Source: Blastococcus aggregatus
Lineage (GTDB): Bacteria > Actinomycetota > Actinomycetes > Mycobacteriales > Geodermatophilaceae
Length of the DNA: 64,000 nucleotides
Direction of reading: 5' to 3'
NCBI RefSeq assembly: GCF_900221005.1
Contig: NZ_OBQI01000001.1
Coordinates: forward strand, 124,001 to 188,000
Position 1 is the stretch's first letter. Every line of letters starts with the position of its first letter. The position numbers and the translations under genes are program-made. Below are positions 1 to 57,662 of the stretch, one piece after another. The notes under the pieces are model-generated. The model was not told the origin of the DNA, ran no database searches, and saw only the letters and a list, made by a program, of their open reading frames with translations.

Positions 1-1004
1 GCGAACAGCCCGCCGATGCCCTCGTCGCCCGGCGGCGGCGCGGAGGGCCCGTCGACGGCCACGGTGTCGCGGGTGCCGGCCGCTCCGGCTGCGCGCTCGC
101 CCGGCGCGTCGATGGCGACGGTGTCCCCGCCCGGCGCCGGCTGAGCGGCCGGGGCCCCGACGGCGGCTGCGGCGTGCGCGGCGGCCACGGAGGCGGCCAC
201 CGCCTGGTCGATGGACGCACGGGTCGGGCCGGCGGCCGGCGCGACCGGCTGGGGTGTGGTCGTCGGCGTCGAGGGCGGCGCGGGGGGCGCGGGGGGCACG
301 GCGCCGGGCGAGGCCGCCATCGCCGCCGGGGTGAGCAGCTGCGGGCGGCGCAGCACGTAGGGCGAGTAGGGGAAGCCCTCGCCGTTGAGCTCCTCGACGG
401 AGGGCCCGCGGCCCTGCAGGCCCAGCGCCTCCAGGGCGGCCCGCACATCGGCCGTCGTCCACAGGCGGGGGTTGTCGACGCCGGTGTAGCGGCTGGCACG
501 GGCGAAGCCGAGCAGCAGCGAGCGGGTCTCGAGCAGGGCCACCTGGTCGCCCTCGCCGAGGTCGCCGTCAGCGGGCAGCAGGCCGTCGAGATCGCCGGCG
601 AGCACGGTCAGCCGGGCGATGCGGCCGGGCTCCAGGCCGGCCCGGCGGAGCCGCATCGCGGTCTCCATCCCCGCGCGCATGAGCCCGTCCAGCGGCGTGG
701 ACCCACCGCCGGCGAGCTGGAGGACCGCTCCTCCGGTGCCCGCGGGGCCGATCGTCCACGGGCCCTCCGGAGACGCGTTGACGACGCCGGTCTGCCGGGC
801 CACCTCGGCCACGCGGATCACGGCGATGCCCTCCGGCACGAAGAGGATCGCGTCGGAGAGCCGGCGCTGGAGCGGGCCGTCGGCGAAGGGGATCGCCGCC
901 ACGACCGCGCCGCGCACGGCGTTGCCGGAGTCCCACCGCACCAGCTCCGAGAAGAAGGCGCGTTCCCCGTCCGTCTGCGGTGGCAGCGGGGTGAGGGGCA
1001 GCAC
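1..1004 (-). CDS. Unknown protein with Ala/Pro-rich C-terminal tail (3' end outside window)
   Basis: The frame stays open from a GTG at 1004 to the left window edge, so the C-terminus is missing. A GGAGG ribosome site sits about 5 bases upstream of the GTG. The first ~220 residues look globular and begin [17 protein letters not shown]. The rest is a low-complexity Ala/Pro/Thr tail in which a short D-T-V-A-[IV]-D motif occurs twice. I see no signal peptide or membrane segment. I do not recognise the family; the front part has a beta-rich start that could suggest a nuclease-related or regulatory fold, but no catalytic motif is clear. It is divergent from orn. The 197 bases between them (1005-1201) show no feature I can name. 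Confidence 0.7.
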
Positions 1005-1201
1005 GTCGGTCCTCCGGGCGGGTTGGGGGCGGCCTCGCGGCACCGGTCGCGGCCGGGAGTCGAGCGTCCCGGCGTCCCCTCGACGCTACGTCACGTCACG
1101 GTCCGGTCTCGGGGACCGCGCCGGATCCCGCGCGAATCACACGCCCCCCACGGGACGACGCGCCCGGCGTCCGCGGAGCTCTGCGTCGGTGGCGTTGCGT
1201 A

Positions 1202-1870
1202 GTGTCGGTCGCCGTGGCTGACAGCGCAGGACACCTGGTCTGGATCGACTGCGAGATGACCGGGCTCGACCTCGTCGAGGACAAGCTCATCGAGGTGGCG
1301 GTGCTCATCACCGACTCCGAGCTCAACGTCCTGGACCCGGGTCTGGACCTCATCATCAGCGCCGACGACGCCGCCCTCGACGGCATGAACGAGGTCGTCC
1401 GGACGATGCACGAGAAGTCGGGGCTGACCGAGGAGGTGCGCGCCTCCACGCTCACCGTGGCCGAGGCCGAGCAGCAGGTCCTCGCCTACATCAAGCGCTG
1501 GGTGCCCGAGCGCCGGACGGCTCCGCTGTGCGGCAACTCGATCGGCACCGACCGCGGGTTCCTCGCCCGCGACATGCCCGAGCTGGACGACCACCTGCAC
1601 TACCGCATGATCGACGTCTCCTCGGTCAAGGAGCTCGCCCGCCGCTGGTTCCCCCGCGTCTACTTCGGGCAGCCGGCGAAGGGCCTGGCGCACCGCGCGC
1701 TGGCCGACATCATCGAGTCGGTGCGGGAGCTGGCCTACTACCGCCGCACGGTGTTCGTGGACTCGCCCGGGCCGAGCAGCAGCCAGGCGAAGAAGGCGGC
1801 CGCCGAGGTCGTCGGCGGCTTCGCCGCACTGCTCGACGGTGACGAGAAGGCGCCCGCTCCCGGAGCCTGA
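1202..1870 (+). CDS. orn: Oligoribonuclease (DEDDh 3'-5' exoribonuclease)
   Basis: Orn degrades 2-5 nt RNA fragments and pGpG to mononucleotides in the cytoplasm, the last step of mRNA decay and of cyclic-di-GMP breakdown. The ExoI motif [10 protein letters not shown] is at residues 14-23, with D16 and E18 as metal ligands. A conserved central stretch ([13 protein letters not shown]) and the C-terminal LAHRALADI segment supply the remaining DEDDh residues. The length of 222 aa is slightly above the usual ~180-200 because of a short Ser/Ala-rich tail. The start is a GTG. tRNA-His follows about 90 bases downstream, an arrangement I associate with actinobacteria. Confidence 0.95.
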
Positions 1871-1961
1871 GGCGCGCCGCTCCCCCGGCCTCGCCGGGCC
1901 GCGCGAGCGCTCCGGTATCGTTGCGTCGGTTCCCCTCCCTGCTCGCCCAGGGAGGAGGACA

Positions 1962-2036
<75 letters not shown>

Positions 2037-2046
2037 CCATCCGGCG

Positions 2047-2078
2047 AAGGCCCTGGTCAGGTAACTGACCAGGGCCTT
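2047..2078 (+). terminator. Rho-independent terminator after tRNA-His
   Basis: A perfect 14-bp stem (AAGGCCCTGGTCAG and its complement) with a GTAA loop is followed by TT and then C-rich sequence. It lies 8 bases after the encoded CCA. Confidence 0.85.
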
Positions 2079-2111
2079 TCCACGTCCCCGGGTATCCGCA
2101 GGGGCATGCAG

Positions 2112-3437
2112 ATGTGGATGGGCACCACGGCGTCGGGCCGGTACTCATTGACCGGAGGGTCGACCGCGCGGGAAGGTGCAGGTCAGCCCGCCGGGCGTCG
2201 TCCACGCGCGTCCGACCCGTCGCCCCCGCCGTCCGCCCGTCACCTGGAGCACCTCCTGACCGTCGCCGTCGACCGTCCCGGCACCAGCGCCACGGCGTCG
2301 ACGACCACCGGCCTCCTCGGGCTCGCCGGGCTCACGTCGCTCGGCGCCGGGGCGATCCACGCCGCCGCCATCGGGGTCCACAGCGAGCACCGGTCAGCCG
2401 TTGTGGCGTTCACCGCCGTCGCCGCCCTCCAGCTGGCGTGGGGCGTCCTGGCGCTCGTCCGCGGCACCCGCCTCGTCGCCGTCCTCGGCCTGCTGATCGG
2501 GACGGGCGTGCTCGCCGGCTGGGCCCTCGCCAAGGTGAGCGGCATCTCCTTCATCGCGGGCCTCGACGAGGCCGAGCCCCTCCAGACGGCGGACGGCCTG
2601 GCCGCCGGCCTCGCCCTCACGTCGGTGCTCGCCCTCGGCGCCGCCCTGTGGACGTGGCGCAGCGCCCGCCCCGGGCTGCGGGCGCCGCTGCCACTCATGG
2701 CCGTCGGCGTCACCGCCCTCACCGTGTTCGGCATGGTGACGGCCGGCTCGCACGCGCACGCCGCCGGAGACGGCCACGGCTCGGTCGCCGCCGGCCACCA
2801 CGCCGACGGGGCCGGGGCCGCGGACCACGTCCAGGACGCCTCGGCGGCCACCGTGCCCTACGACCCCACCAAGCCGATCGACCTGAGCGGCGTCGAGGGC
2901 GTCACCCCCGAGCAGCAGGCCGCGGCCGAGAACGTCATCGCCGTGACCCTCCACGGCCTCCCGCAGTGGGCCGACCCGACCTACGCCGAGGCCAACGGGT
3001 TCCACTCCATCGGCGACGGCTTCACGGGCATCGAGCACCTGATGAACGAGGCCAACATGGACGACGACGTCATCCTCGACCCGGACGTCCCCGAGTCCCT
3101 CGTGTACGACACGAGCGGCGGCGGTCGCCGGCTGGTGGCGGCGATGTACATGCTCAAGCGGGGCACGCCTCTCGAGCAGGCCCCCGACCTCGGCGGCAAC
3201 CTCATGCAGTGGCACACCCACGACAACCTCTGCTACAACGCGGAGGGCAAGGTCCGGGGGATCACGGATGCGAGCGGCGCCTGCCGGGCGGGCCTCGTCA
3301 AGCCGGTCGAGACGCCGATGATCCACGTGTGGCTGGAGCCGCACCCGTGCGGGCCGTTCGCGGCGCTCGAGGGCATCGCCGGCGGCCGGATCCCCGACGG
3401 CGAAGAGGTCCTCTGCGACCACGCCCACGGCGACTGA
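2112..3437 (+). CDS. Polytopic membrane protein with His-rich linker and extracytoplasmic C-terminal domain
   Basis: About 441 aa. An N-terminal part with four likely membrane segments is followed by a His/Asp/Gly-rich stretch (H-A-H, GHHADG) and a ~190-residue soluble domain. That domain starts at YDPTKPIDLSGV and carries conserved-looking motifs: GDGFTGIEHLMN, LMQWHTHDNLCYN, MIHVWLEPHPCGPF and a terminal LCDHAHGD, rich in His and Cys. These His/Cys pairs suggest metal (perhaps copper) binding outside the membrane. It lies directly upstream of a copper ATPase gene. I do not know a function. The frame is open back into the tRNA, so I chose the ATG at 2112, which has AGGGG 7 bases upstream; 2106 and 2118 are alternatives. 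Confidence 0.7.
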   Translation: MWMGTTASGRYSLTGGSTAREGAGQPAGRRPRASDPSPPPSARHLEHLLTVAVDRPGTSATASTTTGLLGLAGLTSLGAGAIHAAAIGVHSEHRSAVVAFTAVAALQLAWGVLALVRGTRLVAVLGLLIGTGVLAGWALAKVSGISFIAGLDEAEPLQTADGLAAGLALTSVLALGAALWTWRSARPGLRAPLPLMAVGVTALTVFGMVTAGSHAHAAGDGHGSVAAGHHADGAGAADHVQDASAATVPYDPTKPIDLSGVEGVTPEQQAAAENVIAVTLHGLPQWADPTYAEANGFHSIGDGFTGIEHLMNEANMDDDVILDPDVPESLVYDTSGGGRRLVAAMYMLKRGTPLEQAPDLGGNLMQWHTHDNLCYNAEGKVRGITDASGACRAGLVKPVETPMIHVWLEPHPCGPFAALEGIAGGRIPDGEEVLCDHAHGD

Positions 3438-3651
3438 CCGACGCGGCCGGGTACGGCTGCTCGCCCGCAGCCATCAGGGGGCAGCTCGGGGCAACCGGGG
3501 CGATCACACCGCTGCGGGACGACGAGAGACGACACGGGTCCTCCATCCGTTTCCGGCGCCGCCCGTGCCACGGGCGCGACCCGCCTGACCCCTTCGATGG
3601 GCGGCGTCGGCGGGGCGCCCGGCCTGCCCTGTCATGCCGCGGCCACACCTC

Positions 3652-3679
3652 TTGCCCAGATACCCCATAGGGGTATAGT
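3652..3679 (+). promoter_or_regulatory. Promoter with CsoR-family operator for the copper ATPase
   Basis: A TTGCCC -35 (3652-3657) and TATAGT -10 (3674-3679) are separated by 16 bases. The spacer holds the inverted repeat ATACCCC-ATA-GGGGTAT (3660-3676), which overlaps the -10. This is the G/C-tract palindrome bound by CsoR-superfamily repressors. The rest of the 320-base gap (3438-3758) contains only a weak 6-bp hairpin near 3465 and an ~80-base leader before the start codon. Confidence 0.75.
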
Positions 3680-3758
3680 GACGAACGCGAGACGCAGCAG
3701 CGCCACCCCCTCCCCGGGTCCGGGGCGGCGACGGCATCCGACGCAGGAGTTGCAGGTC

Positions 3759-5981
3759 ATGTCAGATCCCACGAACCGCTCCGCTCACGACCACGCCGCA
3801 CACCGGGATGAGCCCGCGCACGGCCGAACCCACGGGCAGGGCATGCCCGCCACCGGCGGCGAGGGCGGTGCGCCTTCCACCGTCGAGGACCCGATGCGGG
3901 CCGCGCACGAGAACCACGGCGGCCACGGGACGGGGCACGGCGGCGGCGACCACGTGGCGATGTTCCGCCGGCTGTTCTGGCTGATGCTGGCGCTGTCGGT
4001 GCCGACGGTGCTGCTCAGCGACATGTTCGCCGACATCGTGGGCTACACGCTGCCCGACGTCCCCGGCCTGGACTGGGTCTCCCCCCTGCTGGGCACGGTC
4101 ATCTACGTCTGGGGCGGGCGGCCGTTCCTCACCGGCGCGATCGGTGAGATCCGGGTCCGCAAGCCCGGGATGATGCTGCTCATCGGCATGGCCATCACGG
4201 TGGCCTTCGTCGCCTCCTGGGGCTCCACGGTCGGGCTGCTCTCCCACGAGCTGGACTTCTGGTGGGAGCTGGCGCTGCTGATCGTCATCATGCTGCTCGG
4301 GCACTGGCTGGAGATGCGGTCGCTGGCCCAGACCTCCTCGGCGCTGGACTCCCTGGCCGCACTGCTGCCCGACGAGGCGGAGAAGGTCGTCGGCGACCAG
4401 GTGGTCACCGTGCCGCCGGCCGAGCTGGCCCTCGGCGACGTGGTGATCGTCCGCCCGGGCGGGCGGGTGCCGGCCGACGGGCAGGTCGTCGACGGCACCG
4501 CCGACGTCGACGAGTCGATGATCACCGGGGAGTCCAAGCCGGTGCGCCGCGGCCCCGGGGACACCGTGGTGGCCGGCACCGTGGCCACCGACACCGCGAT
4601 CCGGGTCCGGGTCGCCGCAGTCGGCGAGGACACCGCGCTGGCCGGCATCCAGCGGCTCGTCGCCGAGGCGCAGTCCTCCACCACCCGCGTGCAACTGCTC
4701 GCCGACCGGGCCGCCGGCTGGCTGTTCTGGTTCGCCATCGCCGCCGCCGCGATCACCGCCGTCGTCTGGACCGTCAACGGCACCCCGGAGGACGCGCTGA
4801 CCCGCGTCGTCACGGTGCTGGTCATCGCGTGCCCGCACGCGCTGGGCCTGGCCATCCCGCTGGTCGTGTCGATCTCCACCGAGCGGGCCGCCCGCGGTGG
4901 GGTGCTGGTCAAGGACCGCGGCGCGATGGAGCGGATGCGCACCATCGACACCGTGCTGTTCGACAAGACCGGCACGCTGACCCGCGGCGAGCCGGCGGTC
5001 AACCACATCGCCGGCGCCGGCCTGGACGACGACGAGGTGCTGGCCCTGGCCGCAGCAGCGGAGGCCGACAGCGAGCACCCGCTGGCCCGCGCGATCGTCG
5101 CCGCCGCCGGCCACCGCGGCCTGACCGTCGCGCCGGCGACCGAGTTCCGTGCGTCGGCCGCCGTCGGGGTCACCGCCACCGTCGACGGGCGCACCGTCGC
5201 CGTCGGCGGACCGAACCTGCTGGCCGAGCACGACCTGAGCCCGCTCCCGGACACCGGATCGTGGGCGAGGGATGGCGCGACCGTCCTGCACGTGCTGGTC
5301 GACGGGCACGTCGTCGGCGCACTCGGTCTGGCCGACGAGGTCCGGCCGGAGTCCCGCGAGGCGGTCGACGCGCTGCACGCCCTGGGCGTCGAGGTCGTCA
5401 TGATCACCGGCGACGCCGAGCCGGTCGCCCGCGTGGTCGCCGCCGAGCTCGGCATCGACCAGGTGTTCGCCGGCGTGCGCCCGGAGCACAAGGCCGAGAA
5501 GGTCGCCGCGCTGCAGCGCCAGGGGCGTGCCGTCGCCTTCACGGGCGACGGCGTGAACGACGCCCCCGCGCTCGCCCAGGCCGACGTCGGCATCGCGATC
5601 GGCGCGGGCACCGACGTCGCGATCGCCTCCGCCGGGATCATCCTCGCCTCGTCCGACCCCCGCTCGGTGCTGTCGGTCATCCGGCTGTCGCGGGCCAGCT
5701 ACCGGAAGATGCAGCAGAACCTGTGGGCCGGGGCCGGCTACAACCTGATCGCGGTGCCGCTGGCCGCCGGGGTCCTCGCTCCGATCGGGTTCATCCTGCC
5801 GATGGAGGTCGGCGCGCTGCTGATGAGCCTGTCCACCGTCGTCGTGGCGTCCAACGCCCAGCTGCTGCGGCGACTGGACCTGCGACCGGAGGCCGGCGTC
5901 GCCGAGGCCACCGCCGGCCGCGCGGCCCGGACCCGGGGTGCGGCCACGGACGCCCGGCCGGCCACCGCCGACCGGCACTGA
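3759..5981 (+). CDS. copB: Heavy-metal P1B-3-type ATPase (CopB-like copper exporter)
   Basis: An ATP-driven export pump in the cytoplasmic membrane, 740 aa. The N-terminal ~70 residues form a His-rich metal-binding tail (HDHAAH, HENHGGHGTGHGGGDH). The actuator motif TGE is at 256-258. The membrane metal site is C358-P359-H360, the CPH signature of CopB/P1B-3 pumps (Cu2+ or Cu+ with Ag+), unlike the CPC of CopA. The phosphorylated Asp is D402 in DKTGT, followed by SEHPLARA and GDGVNDAP. The start at ATG 3759 has AGGAG about 9 bases upstream. A CsoR-type operator lies 83 bases upstream, so metal or thiol-stress control is likely. Confidence 0.92.
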   Translation: MSDPTNRSAHDHAAHRDEPAHGRTHGQGMPATGGEGGAPSTVEDPMRAAHENHGGHGTGHGGGDHVAMFRRLFWLMLALSVPTVLLSDMFADIVGYTLPDVPGLDWVSPLLGTVIYVWGGRPFLTGAIGEIRVRKPGMMLLIGMAITVAFVASWGSTVGLLSHELDFWWELALLIVIMLLGHWLEMRSLAQTSSALDSLAALLPDEAEKVVGDQVVTVPPAELALGDVVIVRPGGRVPADGQVVDGTADVDESMITGESKPVRRGPGDTVVAGTVATDTAIRVRVAAVGEDTALAGIQRLVAEAQSSTTRVQLLADRAAGWLFWFAIAAAAITAVVWTVNGTPEDALTRVVTVLVIACPHALGLAIPLVVSISTERAARGGVLVKDRGAMERMRTIDTVLFDKTGTLTRGEPAVNHIAGAGLDDDEVLALAAAAEADSEHPLARAIVAAAGHRGLTVAPATEFRASAAVGVTATVDGRTVAVGGPNLLAEHDLSPLPDTGSWARDGATVLHVLVDGHVVGALGLADEVRPESREAVDALHALGVEVVMITGDAEPVARVVAAELGIDQVFAGVRPEHKAEKVAALQRQGRAVAFTGDGVNDAPALAQADVGIAIGAGTDVAIASAGIILASSDPRSVLSVIRLSRASYRKMQQNLWAGAGYNLIAVPLAAGVLAPIGFILPMEVGALLMSLSTVVVASNAQLLRRLDLRPEAGVAEATAGRAARTRGAATDARPATADRH

Positions 5982-55411: not shown

Positions 55412-55551
55412 CACGGCCCCGGCTCCGGAGCACCCCTCGAGGGGCGCCCGTCGACCCGCTGCCGCGACGGGCGGGGCGGGAGTGGCGGGTGCGCCGAACA
55501 CGCACCCGGGGGTGCTGGCCCCGGGCTGCCGGTGCTCCCACCCTGACGAGC

Positions 55552-55794
55552 ATGACCAGCGTCTACGCGTACGGCACGGCACACGCGGTCGTGATGGTCG
55601 GCTCCTTCGGCGTGGGTGGGCTGAAGCCGCGCCAGATCGGCCCGGCGCACGCCACCATCGGCCGGGTCAGCGGGCAGAGCCGCAAGGCGCTGTGCGGCGC
55701 CTACGTCTCCATGGACGAGCAGCAGCCGTGGCCGCCCGCGGGCTACGACGACCAGCAGCTCTGCGAGACGTGCGCGGAGCTCGCCGCCCTCTGA
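55552..55794 (+). CDS. Small protein with likely zinc-binding Cys motif
   Basis: 80 aa. It starts MTSVYAYGTAHAVVMVGSFG and has KALCGAYV and LCETCAEL near the C-terminus. The C...C-x2-C arrangement resembles small actinobacterial and phage proteins with a zinc knuckle. I know no function. The 140 bases upstream contain a CCCCTCGAGGGG palindrome (55433-55444), probably part of a weak terminator for dapA. It is convergent with the MoaD-like gene, 1 base apart. Confidence 0.65.
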   Translation: MTSVYAYGTAHAVVMVGSFGVGGLKPRQIGPAHATIGRVSGQSRKALCGAYVSMDEQQPWPPAGYDDQQLCETCAELAAL

Positions 55795-55795
55795 C

Positions 55796-56077
55796 TCAGC
55801 CGCCGGCGACCGAGGGCAGCACCTGCACGACGGCGCCGTCGGGCACGGCGGTGGCCAGCCCGCCCTGCCAGCGCACGTCCTCGCCGTCGACGTAGACGTT
55901 CACGAACCGGCGCACCCGCCCGGTCTCGTCCCGGATCCGCCGGTCCAGCGTCGGGTGCCGCGCGGCGACGGCGTCCAGCAGGTCGGCCAGCGTGCCGCCC
56001 GCAGGGTCGACGTCGAGGTGCTTGGCGCCGCCCGCGAGGTCGGCGAGCACGCCCGGCAGCACCACCTGGACACTCAC
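55796..56077 (-). CDS. MoaD/ThiS-family ubiquitin-like protein
   Basis: 93 aa beta-grasp protein: VQVVLPGVLADLAGG, LADLLDAVAARHPTLDRRI, RFVNVYVDGEDVR, and a C-terminal VLPSVAGG. The terminal Gly-Gly is the feature needed for adenylation and thiocarboxylate formation. No molybdopterin or thiamine genes are nearby. The GTG start overlaps the stop of the BNR-repeat gene (GTGA, 56074-56077), so the two are coupled. It may be a sulfur carrier or protein modifier. Confidence 0.88.
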   Translation of the reverse strand: MSVQVVLPGVLADLAGGAKHLDVDPAGGTLADLLDAVAARHPTLDRRIRDETGRVRRFVNVYVDGEDVRWQGGLATAVPDGAVVQVLPSVAGG

Positions 56078-57153
56078 GGCAGCCGGACGGCGCGCAGCGC
56101 GAGGACGTCGGGCAGGTGCTCGGCGACCAGCGTGAAGGTGTCGCCCTCGTCGGTGCTGGCGTAGACGCAGCCGTCGCGGGTGCCGACGTAGACGCCGGTC
56201 GGATCGCCGTCGTCCACGCAGAAGGCGTCCCGCAGCACCGCCGTCCAGGCGCCGTCCGGCAGCCCCTCCCCCGACTCGGTCCAGCTCACCCCGGCGTCGC
56301 GGGTCCGGTGCACGCGTAGCCGCCCACCCGGCGGCACCCGCTCCATGTCGGCCACCAGCGGAACCACCCACGCCGTGCCCGGCGTCGTCGGCGACGCCGC
56401 GATCGGGAGCCCGAAGTCGGCGGGCAGGCCCTCGGCGATCGACGTCCACGAGCCGCCGGCGTCGTCGGTCCGGTAGACGCCGAAGTGGTTCTGCGCGTAC
56501 ATCCGCGCCGGATCCCCCGCGTCGACGGCGACCTTGTGCACGCACTGGCCGTACTCCGGCGGCTCCGGCAGGAAGACGGCGCTGATCCCCCGGTTGCGCG
56601 GGGCCCAGTCCGAGGCGCCGTCCTCGCTGACGTAGACACCGCCGGTGCTCATCGCGACCGTGACCCGGTCCGATCCCGGATCGGGCAGGACCGTGTGCAC
56701 CGCGCCGCCGCCGGCACCGGGCTCCCACGTGGGCCGGTGCGGGTGGTCCCACAGCCCGCGGACCAGCGAGAAGCTGCAGCCGCCGTCGGTGCTGCGCCAC
56801 AGCGAGTGCGGCTCGCAGCCGGCCCACACCACGTCGGGACGGTCGGCGGTGTCGGGACGCAGCTGCCACACGCGGGCCAGCGCCGCACCGGTGTCCTCCG
56901 GGAAGCGGACGGCGCCCGACTCCGTCTCCTCCCAGCTCGCCCCGAGGTCGTCGGACCGGACGACCGACGGGCCCCAGTGGCCGTACTGGATGCCGGCCAG
57001 CACCCGCGGACGGTCCCGGCGGGTGTCGATGCTCACCGCCGCGACCTCCTGGGCCAGCAGGTGCGGCTCCCCGATGCGCCAGGTGCGCCGGTCGTCCTCG
57101 CTGCGGGCCAGCCACAGCCCCTTGCGCGTGCCGATCGCCAGCAGATCGGTCAT
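56074..57153 (-). CDS. BNR/sialidase-type beta-propeller protein
   Basis: 359 aa with repeated S-x-D-x-G-x-[ST]-W-type Asp-box motifs: RSDDLGASWEET, RSTDGGCSFSLV, VSEDGASDWAP, RTDDAGGSWTSI, RTRDAGVSWTES and STDEGDTFTLV. It begins MTDLLAIGTRKGLWLARSED, without signal peptide, so it seems cytoplasmic. Catalytic Arg residues of true sialidases are not obvious. The pairing with a MoaD-like gene is one I recall from other bacteria; the function is unknown. I see no RBS decisive enough to change the start. Confidence 0.85.
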   Translation of the reverse strand: MTDLLAIGTRKGLWLARSEDDRRTWRIGEPHLLAQEVAAVSIDTRRDRPRVLAGIQYGHWGPSVVRSDDLGASWEETESGAVRFPEDTGAALARVWQLRPDTADRPDVVWAGCEPHSLWRSTDGGCSFSLVRGLWDHPHRPTWEPGAGGGAVHTVLPDPGSDRVTVAMSTGGVYVSEDGASDWAPRNRGISAVFLPEPPEYGQCVHKVAVDAGDPARMYAQNHFGVYRTDDAGGSWTSIAEGLPADFGLPIAASPTTPGTAWVVPLVADMERVPPGGRLRVHRTRDAGVSWTESGEGLPDGAWTAVLRDAFCVDDGDPTGVYVGTRDGCVYASTDEGDTFTLVAEHLPDVLALRAVRLP

Positions 57154-57209
57154 GGTGCCCCTCCCGGGTCGACGGTCCTCAGACGTAGGACCGCCGACCG
57201 GGGCGGAAC

Positions 57210-57662
57210 TCAGCGGCGGGTGGCGCCGCCCTCGTTCGGGTCGATGATCTGCGTCTGGTCCGGGGCGGTGGCGGCCTGGGCGGAGTGGCGGCCGGGCCCG
57301 TCGGCGGCCCCGTCACCGCGGACCAGGTCCGGGGCGTCCTTCTTCGCCCGGGCGCGGAGCTCCTCGGCGGCGGTCCGGTCCTCGTCAGCGCGGGCGGACC
57401 GCTCGCGGGCCTCCTGCTCGGCGAGGGCGGCGCGCTCCTGCGCCTCGGCCAGCTGGCGGCGGGCAGCCGCCGCCTGCTCCTCGGCCAGCGCCTGCTCCTT
57501 CTCGGCGCGGGCCCCCCGGACCTGGGCCTCCTGCAGGTTCCCGCGCGCCTCCTCGCGCCTGCGGGCGCGCGAGATCCGGGAACGCTTGCTCAGGGCCAGG
57601 ACCAGCAGCGCGACGAGCACCACTGCGACGACGACGAGCACGATGATCAGCCAGGTGTCCAC
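57210..57662 (-). CDS. Single-pass membrane protein with long coiled coil
   Basis: 150 aa. One N-terminal membrane segment (LIIVLVVVAVVLVALLVLAL) then a basic stretch and ~70 residues of Ala/Glu/Arg/Gln heptads typical of a coiled coil (about 30-105), ending in a flexible tail (QTQIIDPNEGG). Orientation by the positive-inside rule puts the coil in the cytoplasm. I know no function. GTG 57662 has a strong GGAGGAGG site, part of which lies in a hairpin arm. Confidence 0.75.
   Translation of the reverse strand: MDTWLIIVLVVVAVVLVALLVLALSKRSRISRARRREEARGNLQEAQVRGARAEKEQALAEEQAAAARRQLAEAQERAALAEQEARERSARADEDRTAAEELRARAKKDAPDLVRGDGAADGPGRHSAQAATAPDQTQIIDPNEGGATRR

Follow-up and report, generated by a model that had tools for sequence, protein, structure and literature searches.

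In Blastococcus aggregatus (genome of 4.62 Mb), the gene for an Asp-box (BNR) beta-propeller overlaps the gene for a CysO-like ubiquitin-like protein (UBL), and the UBL lies near the propeller or is fused to it in 127 of 154 non-redundant propeller loci. The pairing exceeds chance and is independent of gene order. In our judgement, the chances are about even that the two proteins form a dedicated sulfur-carrier module and that the propeller transfers sulfur from the carrier to a small molecule.

The gene pair and its distribution

The window analysed here is the whole stretch of 64,000 nucleotides taken from this genome (contig NZ_OBQI01000001.1, positions 124,001 to 188,000). The propeller gene comes first on the minus strand and the UBL gene follows:

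56074..57153, minus strand: Asp-box (BNR) beta-propeller gene, an ORF of 359 aa with an ATG start; seven blades by match to PDB 3b7f
55796..56077, minus strand: CysO-like UBL gene (ThiS/MoaD beta-grasp family), 93 aa, GTG start
56074..56077, minus strand: GTGA overlap of the propeller stop and the UBL GTG start, read directly from the sequence
55799..55804, minus strand: codons for the Gly-Gly with which the UBL ends, read directly from the sequence
57158..57165, minus strand: purine-rich GGGAGGGG, a putative ribosome-binding-site-like stretch 4 nt ahead of the propeller ATG, read directly from the sequence

The first-pass annotation had described a GTGA-overlapping pair, away from Moco and thiamine genes, whose UBL ends in Gly-Gly. 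The overlap is real, with the two ORFs sharing 56074-56077, and the pair is conserved across genomes. The UBL C-terminus reads VLPSVAGG, a Pfam scan of the eight neighbours of the pair found no Moco or thiamine gene, and the MoaE of this genome is encoded on another contig (C10). The observation is thus confirmed, and the interpretation attached to it, a sulfur-carrier or protein-modification role, is partly supported by what follows. Two short proteins encoded beside the pair, at 55489-55794 (101 aa) and 57210-57662 (150 aa), have no Pfam match. Relatives of both adjoin the pair in one other locus (L040), and a relative of the 101-aa protein also occurs elsewhere in genome G025. Propeller and UBL are both absent from G025, and its broken local synteny rules it out as a clean in-place loss of the pair.

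The closest named relative of the propeller is from a Blastococcus (97% identity). The propeller was found in 44 of 60 related genomes, the B. aggregatus genome included, and the UBL accompanied it in all 40 loci read from the 44 propeller loci of this set; in one of these 40 (L047) the UBL lies 1,192 nt from the propeller, with an oxidoreductase-like gene inserted between them. In a sample of 296 genomes across the phylum, 81 had a propeller match at E 1e-30, and a UBL adjoined the propeller or was fused to it in 63 of 79 loci that reached 130 bits, counting one low-scoring locus without UBL (L231) as a miss. For loci on genome contigs the figure was 70 of 80. Phyla beyond Actinomycetota were sampled through plasmid records, 18 of which matched and 15 of which were read. 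The UBL was present in eight (three Burkholderia, Cupriavidus, Mitsuaria, Pseudomonas, Arthrobacter and Nonomuraea), upstream of the propeller in all six proteobacterial ones, and missing from seven (three Paracoccaceae, Streptomyces, Paraburkholderia phymatum, L065 and L067, the last two falling under the family threshold).

The co-occurrence survey proposed in the first-pass annotation was made on the 154 loci left after clustering at 90% propeller identity and leaving out loci below 180 bits. In the 127 paired loci the UBL is downstream in 95, upstream in 21 and fused in 11. One genome (G175) has two propeller copies (L174, L226), each with its own adjacent UBL. The 27 propellers without a nearby UBL include families f18 and f59 and representatives from Streptomyces, Jiangella, Phytoactinopolyspora, Aeromicrobium, Microlunatus and Paracoccaceae; one of these loci (L224) ends at a contig end. 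The ten low-scoring loci L229-L238, none with a UBL, lie outside the 154. Together with L065 and L067 they make up a distant propeller subfamily (about 108-140 bits) without an adjacent UBL, and the Haladaptatus member (L065) comes after a DoxX gene.

In 12 loci of the phylum sample, the two proteins are one chain, with the UBL N-terminal and the propeller after it, and Gly-Gly stands at the junction in all 12 (the start of one, L208, is truncated by a contig end). The 11 non-redundant fusions and 13 loci with an upstream UBL formed one group of 24 in a UBL tree (local support 0.896). The fusions and the pairing in both gene orders speak against mere hitch-hiking.

Clustering of the neighbours of 126 loci, based on approximate gene calls and ~1.5-5 kb of flanking sequence, gave the UBL as the only widely recurring family; no other family, some clusters being left unnamed, was found nearby in more than 12 loci. 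A nine-locus cluster on the opposite strand, covering the position of the UBL, is probably an antisense artefact. PADLOC had no match for the propeller and only weak ones for the UBL, and a defence role was set aside. We also chose 18 genomes lacking the propeller. Nine had no UBL match at E 1e-8, and the other nine had ten UBLs, nine by cysM/mec and one by thrC, none of the paired type.

The ubiquitin-like protein and its possible activation in trans

The window UBL matched Pfam ThiS (PF02597) at 54.6 bits against a cut-off of 22.5 (E 1.7e-14). Within the ThiS/MoaD family, to which the first-pass label of a MoaD-like protein points, the carrier resembles CysO and not the MoaD of Moco synthesis. 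Its closest solved relatives are PDB 3dwg (5.7e-17), deposited as M. tuberculosis cfp10A, which we take to be CysO, and the ThiS/MoaD protein 4n6e. The paired UBL gene is not near moaE: of 41 propeller genomes, 40 have MoaE, and none has it closer to the pair than 8 kb, the shortest distance being 8.2 kb (G240). We therefore rejected membership in the Moco pathway, and the conserved pairing with Moco genes that the first-pass annotation had named as evidence against its reading was not seen.

Besides the ThiS cut-off and the C-terminal Gly-Gly, the window UBL exceeded the cut-off of the NCBIfam SAMP1 model (63.2 against 60 bits). This is an "equivalog" model passed here by an actinobacterial protein, and because the score lies above the cut-off, automatic annotation may label the UBL an archaeal modifier.

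A tree of 151 UBLs (128 propeller-linked, 14 CysO, eight thrC-linked and one fused to a sulfite-reductase-type protein) separated the CysO and thrC-linked UBLs from the propeller-linked ones with local support of 0.982. The propeller UBLs thus do not group with CysO, and the neighbours of the window UBL are not cysM and mec. The single sulfite-reductase-type fused UBL was placed on the propeller side. At one locus (L256, about 145-2364, plus strand) a UBL-like end, AMSGGAV, is fused C-terminally to a long protein that by eye resembles a sulfite reductase; a UBL fused to sulfite reductase is reported for other actinobacteria in the accessible portion of PMC1779556.

The loss of Gly-Gly in orthologs had been named as a second result that would speak against the first-pass reading. 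It occurred in one of 115 assessable non-redundant separate UBLs, with the other 114 retaining Gly-Gly. The full set of 116 includes 98 with GG as their last residues (GGG in L176 and L196), 15 with 1-5 residues beyond it and one with 25 (L207); one (L167) is truncated by a contig end and could not be assessed. The one true loss is in Nonomuraea (L063, 5102-5395), where the end VLPALA was confirmed in the DNA, which may reflect decay, an error, or a carrier now independent of activation. Judging from these counts, the Gly-Gly of paired UBLs is under strong constraint. The Nonomuraea locus, which keeps the pair without Gly-Gly, would suit a UBL serving as a structural subunit without Gly-Gly activation, like TmoB or YukD as described in the accessible text of PMC1779556. 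However, all 12 fusions and all but one of the 115 assessable separate UBLs have Gly-Gly, and we consider such a role most improbable.

No E1-like gene had been noted beside the pair, and none was found within the window. That absence does not extend to the genome, which encodes an E1 with ThiF and rhodanese domains on contig C8, and so the "missing" activator exists in trans. An E1-family match (E 1e-20) was found in 36 of 37 propeller genomes, the only miss being a genome that is 87% complete (G195). A JAMM (Prok-JAB) protein was found in 35 of the 37; the two genomes lacking it (G067 and G142) both carry an E1, and their UBLs (L161, L186) end exactly in Gly-Gly. In the 22 genomes in which Gly-Gly is masked (ten fused and 12 tailed, including G104, whose extra residue is only a third Gly), JAMM was always present, weakly so in G323. 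This agrees weakly with JAMM processing. JAMM accompanies CysO in most contexts read, and the presence of JAMM and E1 lends weak support because both are common anyway on account of CysO. In the accessible part of PMC3227635, mycobacterial MoeZR thiocarboxylates MoaD1, MoaD2 and CysO.

A canonical mec-cysO-cysM operon, with a JAMM gene as mec and a gene for a PLP enzyme that we take to be cysM, lies ~41 kb from the pair on the same contig. Its CysO (C4:222606-222878, minus strand, in L008), encoded between mec and cysM, has a Cys after Gly-Gly (AVAGGC), so trimming would precede activation. Two more ThiS-family matches above the cut-off are on contigs C7 and C10. That the paired UBL serves cysteine synthesis as another CysO is a reading we do not favour. 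The genuine CysO has cysM and mec beside it, the two kinds of UBL are separated in the tree, and in G067 and G142, which retain the pair, no further CysO-like UBL was found at E 1e-8.

A CysO-like UBL also adjoins the threonine synthase gene, thrC, in many actinobacterial genomes (loci L239, L241, L243, L245, L247, L249, L251, L253, L272, L274, L275, L276 and L278), with thrC named by eye and Pfam PALP found in one example. It could serve a thrC-like PLP enzyme as sulfur carrier, and a search of the open-access literature turned up no description of it. The thrC-linked UBL was present in all eight unpaired genomes read. As a substitute for the paired UBL in these genomes it was rejected, since at least four paired genomes (G240, G274, G104 and G175) have it too, and for this reason we claim no complementarity. 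One UBL (G090, L277) lies beside none of the reference genes.

SAMPs, Urm1 and TtuB are UBLs conjugated to protein lysines, and the paired UBL might likewise be a protein modifier, activated by E1 and conjugated to lysines, with the propeller as a substrate-recognition or ligase-like factor and JAMM removing the tag. The SAMP1 score, the conserved Gly-Gly and the JAMM in 35 of 37 propeller genomes agree with this. However, the CysO system already explains E1 and JAMM, G067 and G142 have the pair and no detectable JAMM, and no family but the UBL recurs beyond 12 loci nearby, so that we regard a modifier role as unlikely.

The propeller and its invariant residues

The propeller matched PDB 3b7f over residues 4-357 (phmmer, E 5.5e-69). 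Its AlphaFold model is confident (pLDDT 90.1, pTM 0.91), and VIA-align gave 3b7f as the nearest solved fold (Z 49.6 over 352 residues, 38% identity), followed by GH74 and other propellers with Z near 28. Model and alignment place it in the Asp-box propeller fold of the 3b7f type; the Pfam BNR score stayed under the cut-off (23.8 against 27).

Residue conservation was counted over 152 non-redundant propeller sequences. Thr9, Trp96, Trp143, His153, Ser169, His206, Gln221, His223 and Arg308 are identical in all 152 and Lys11 in 151. These ten residues are polar or aromatic, three of them His, and they are alike in the 127 paired and the 25 unpaired propellers of the count. By the strand order of the model, some sit where strand A begins or immediately ahead of it, and the others where strand B ends and in the B-C loop. 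This placement suggests that they lie on one face, where propeller ligands usually bind, and the invariant polar residues would rather resemble a small-ligand site. As the unpaired propellers keep them, the propeller may work without a UBL or use another carrier.

Public records label these proteins exo-alpha-sialidase or sialidase family, and the Asp-box fold is common to GH74 and other glycosidases, which could make the propeller an ordinary intracellular hydrolase that merely shares an operon with the UBL. The usual sialidase (GH33-like) catalytic set is a Tyr/Glu nucleophile pair with an arginine triad. By column counts over the 152 propellers this set is missing: the best Tyr column reached 132 and the best Glu column 112, and the only near-invariant Arg residues are Arg228 (150/152) and Arg308 (152/152). 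The sialidase label is unsupported on this count; that no sialidase was among the VIA-align matches listed carries no evidential weight. With the catalytic set missing and with fusions and pairing in both orders, we consider the hydrolase reading quite improbable.

PA1356, a Pseudomonas aeruginosa relative, was a predicted Tat candidate, but its N-terminus failed a reporter assay in the accessible part of PMC6085387; this fits a cytoplasmic protein, and we rejected export of the propeller. According to the available text of PMC11538994, colonization and biofilm are promoted by PA1356; no basis for this is given there, and we do not build on it.

Foldseek matches include peptide-binding Asp-box propellers, namely sortilin-neurotensin and Ycf48-D1 peptide complexes. 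They could be counted in favour of the protein-modifier role discussed above, against which the small-ligand character of the invariant polar residues would argue. They would also suit a propeller that is a binding or regulatory partner, gripping the UBL C-terminus and protecting or withholding its thiocarboxylate, and a carboxylate could be bound by Arg308 and Lys11, both invariant. However, three invariant His, a Gln and a Ser would be more than tail binding needs, and propellers without a nearby UBL keep the same residues. We believe tail binding alone to be distinctly unlikely.

On recount, 12 of 210 family loci (L129, at 2981-3940, L128, L132, L136, L138-L142, L144, L146 and L186), nine with a UBL and three without, have a gene for a D-2-hydroxyacid dehydrogenase (PF02826) upstream of the propeller and on its strand. 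The dehydrogenase gene is 42-139 nt from the propeller in ten loci and 518 and 1,276 nt in the other two; one further match is found 3.5 kb downstream, on the opposite strand. This is a weak hint of a substrate. Eleven of these loci share an opposite-strand gene further upstream, and so shared ancestry may explain the dehydrogenase.

Proposed sulfur transfer and comparison with known systems

To our knowledge, each known bacterial ubiquitin-like carrier is paired with a sulfur-accepting enzyme (ThiG, MoaE, CysM), and in the characterised systems we are aware of, the neighbour or fusion partner of the carrier is its sulfur acceptor. By this rule the propeller would be the acceptor, and the natural fusions and invariant residues likewise point to the propeller as the enzyme that partners the carrier, the sulfur acceptor that seemed "missing". 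The first-pass statement that no acceptor gene is present would then not hold. No neighbour of the pair clearly names a substrate. We know of no beta-propeller among sulfur-carrier acceptor enzymes, and the acceptor chemistry is not readable from the propeller sequence.

In the sulfur-carrier module that we propose, a MoeZ-type E1 (ThiF plus rhodanese) encoded elsewhere would adenylate the Gly-Gly of the UBL and convert it to a thiocarboxylate. Where residues or the propeller extend beyond Gly-Gly, a JAMM/Mec-type protease would first free it. The UBL tail would then dock on the conserved propeller face bearing His153, His206, His223, Gln221, Ser169, Thr9, Lys11, Trp96, Trp143 and Arg308, and the propeller would hand the sulfur to a small-molecule substrate. 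Against this stand the 27 of 154 propellers without a UBL, their sites intact, and neighbours that give no clear clue to the substrate. A fuller version we hold tentatively, at somewhat less than even chances: a widespread and undescribed sulfur-transfer pathway of Actinomycetota and Proteobacteria in which an Asp-box propeller, perhaps with a three-His metal site, takes the sulfur of the UBL thiocarboxylate, the two being made in some lineages as one chain that is cut after Gly-Gly.

Identifying the partner of a carrier has usually revealed its pathway. A propeller partner, present in two phyla and fused in places, would add a new branch to sulfur-carrier or ubiquitin-like biology. Proteins labelled "exo-alpha-sialidase", among them the solved 3b7f and the P. 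aeruginosa protein PA1356, would also gain a function open to testing.

The first-pass annotation took the role of the pair to be undefined, which agrees with our search: in the open-access literature, to which the search was confined, we found no paper on a propeller-UBL pair and none on MoaD together with BNR. The accessible portions of PMC1796856, PMC3495685 and PMC9564171 do not describe the pair; PMC1796856 mentions there a fusion of a propeller with another beta-grasp family, SLBB. Iyer et al. 2006 (PMC1779556) catalogued ThiS/MoaD-like proteins with E1, JAB and sulfur enzymes; in the main text as available the words propeller, BNR, sialidase and glycosyl are absent and the pair was not seen. 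The solved 3b7f is Reut_B4987 of Ralstonia eutropha JMP134, a seven-bladed member of the same propeller family and a structural-genomics entry named "glycosyl hydrolase, BNR repeat". The 2009 paper (PMC2716378), in its accessible part, gives it seven blades and a function "not known", and mentions no UBL partner.

MoaX of M. tuberculosis is a MoaD-MoaE fusion whose activity needs cleavage after Gly-Gly (Gly82), by a protease called unidentified in the available text of PMC4326299. Like the propeller fusions, it joins a carrier to its partner enzyme and, as far as that text goes, keeps the internal Gly-Gly. It belongs to the Moco pathway and its partner is MoaE, whereas in the propeller fusions, where cleavage is hypothetical, the partner is the propeller. 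The thrC-linked UBL of actinobacteria resembles the pair in that a CysO-like UBL with Gly-Gly lies beside a partner enzyme; its partner is a PLP enzyme, however, and its UBLs group with CysO, apart from the propeller UBLs. CysO-CysM-Mec shares with the pair a ThiS/MoaD-family UBL, the ends AVAGG/SVAGG and, in most of the genomes concerned, the presence of genes for E1 and JAMM. The partner there is the PLP enzyme CysM and here a propeller, and B. aggregatus has mec-cysO-cysM besides the pair, the two kinds of UBL forming separate groups (0.982).
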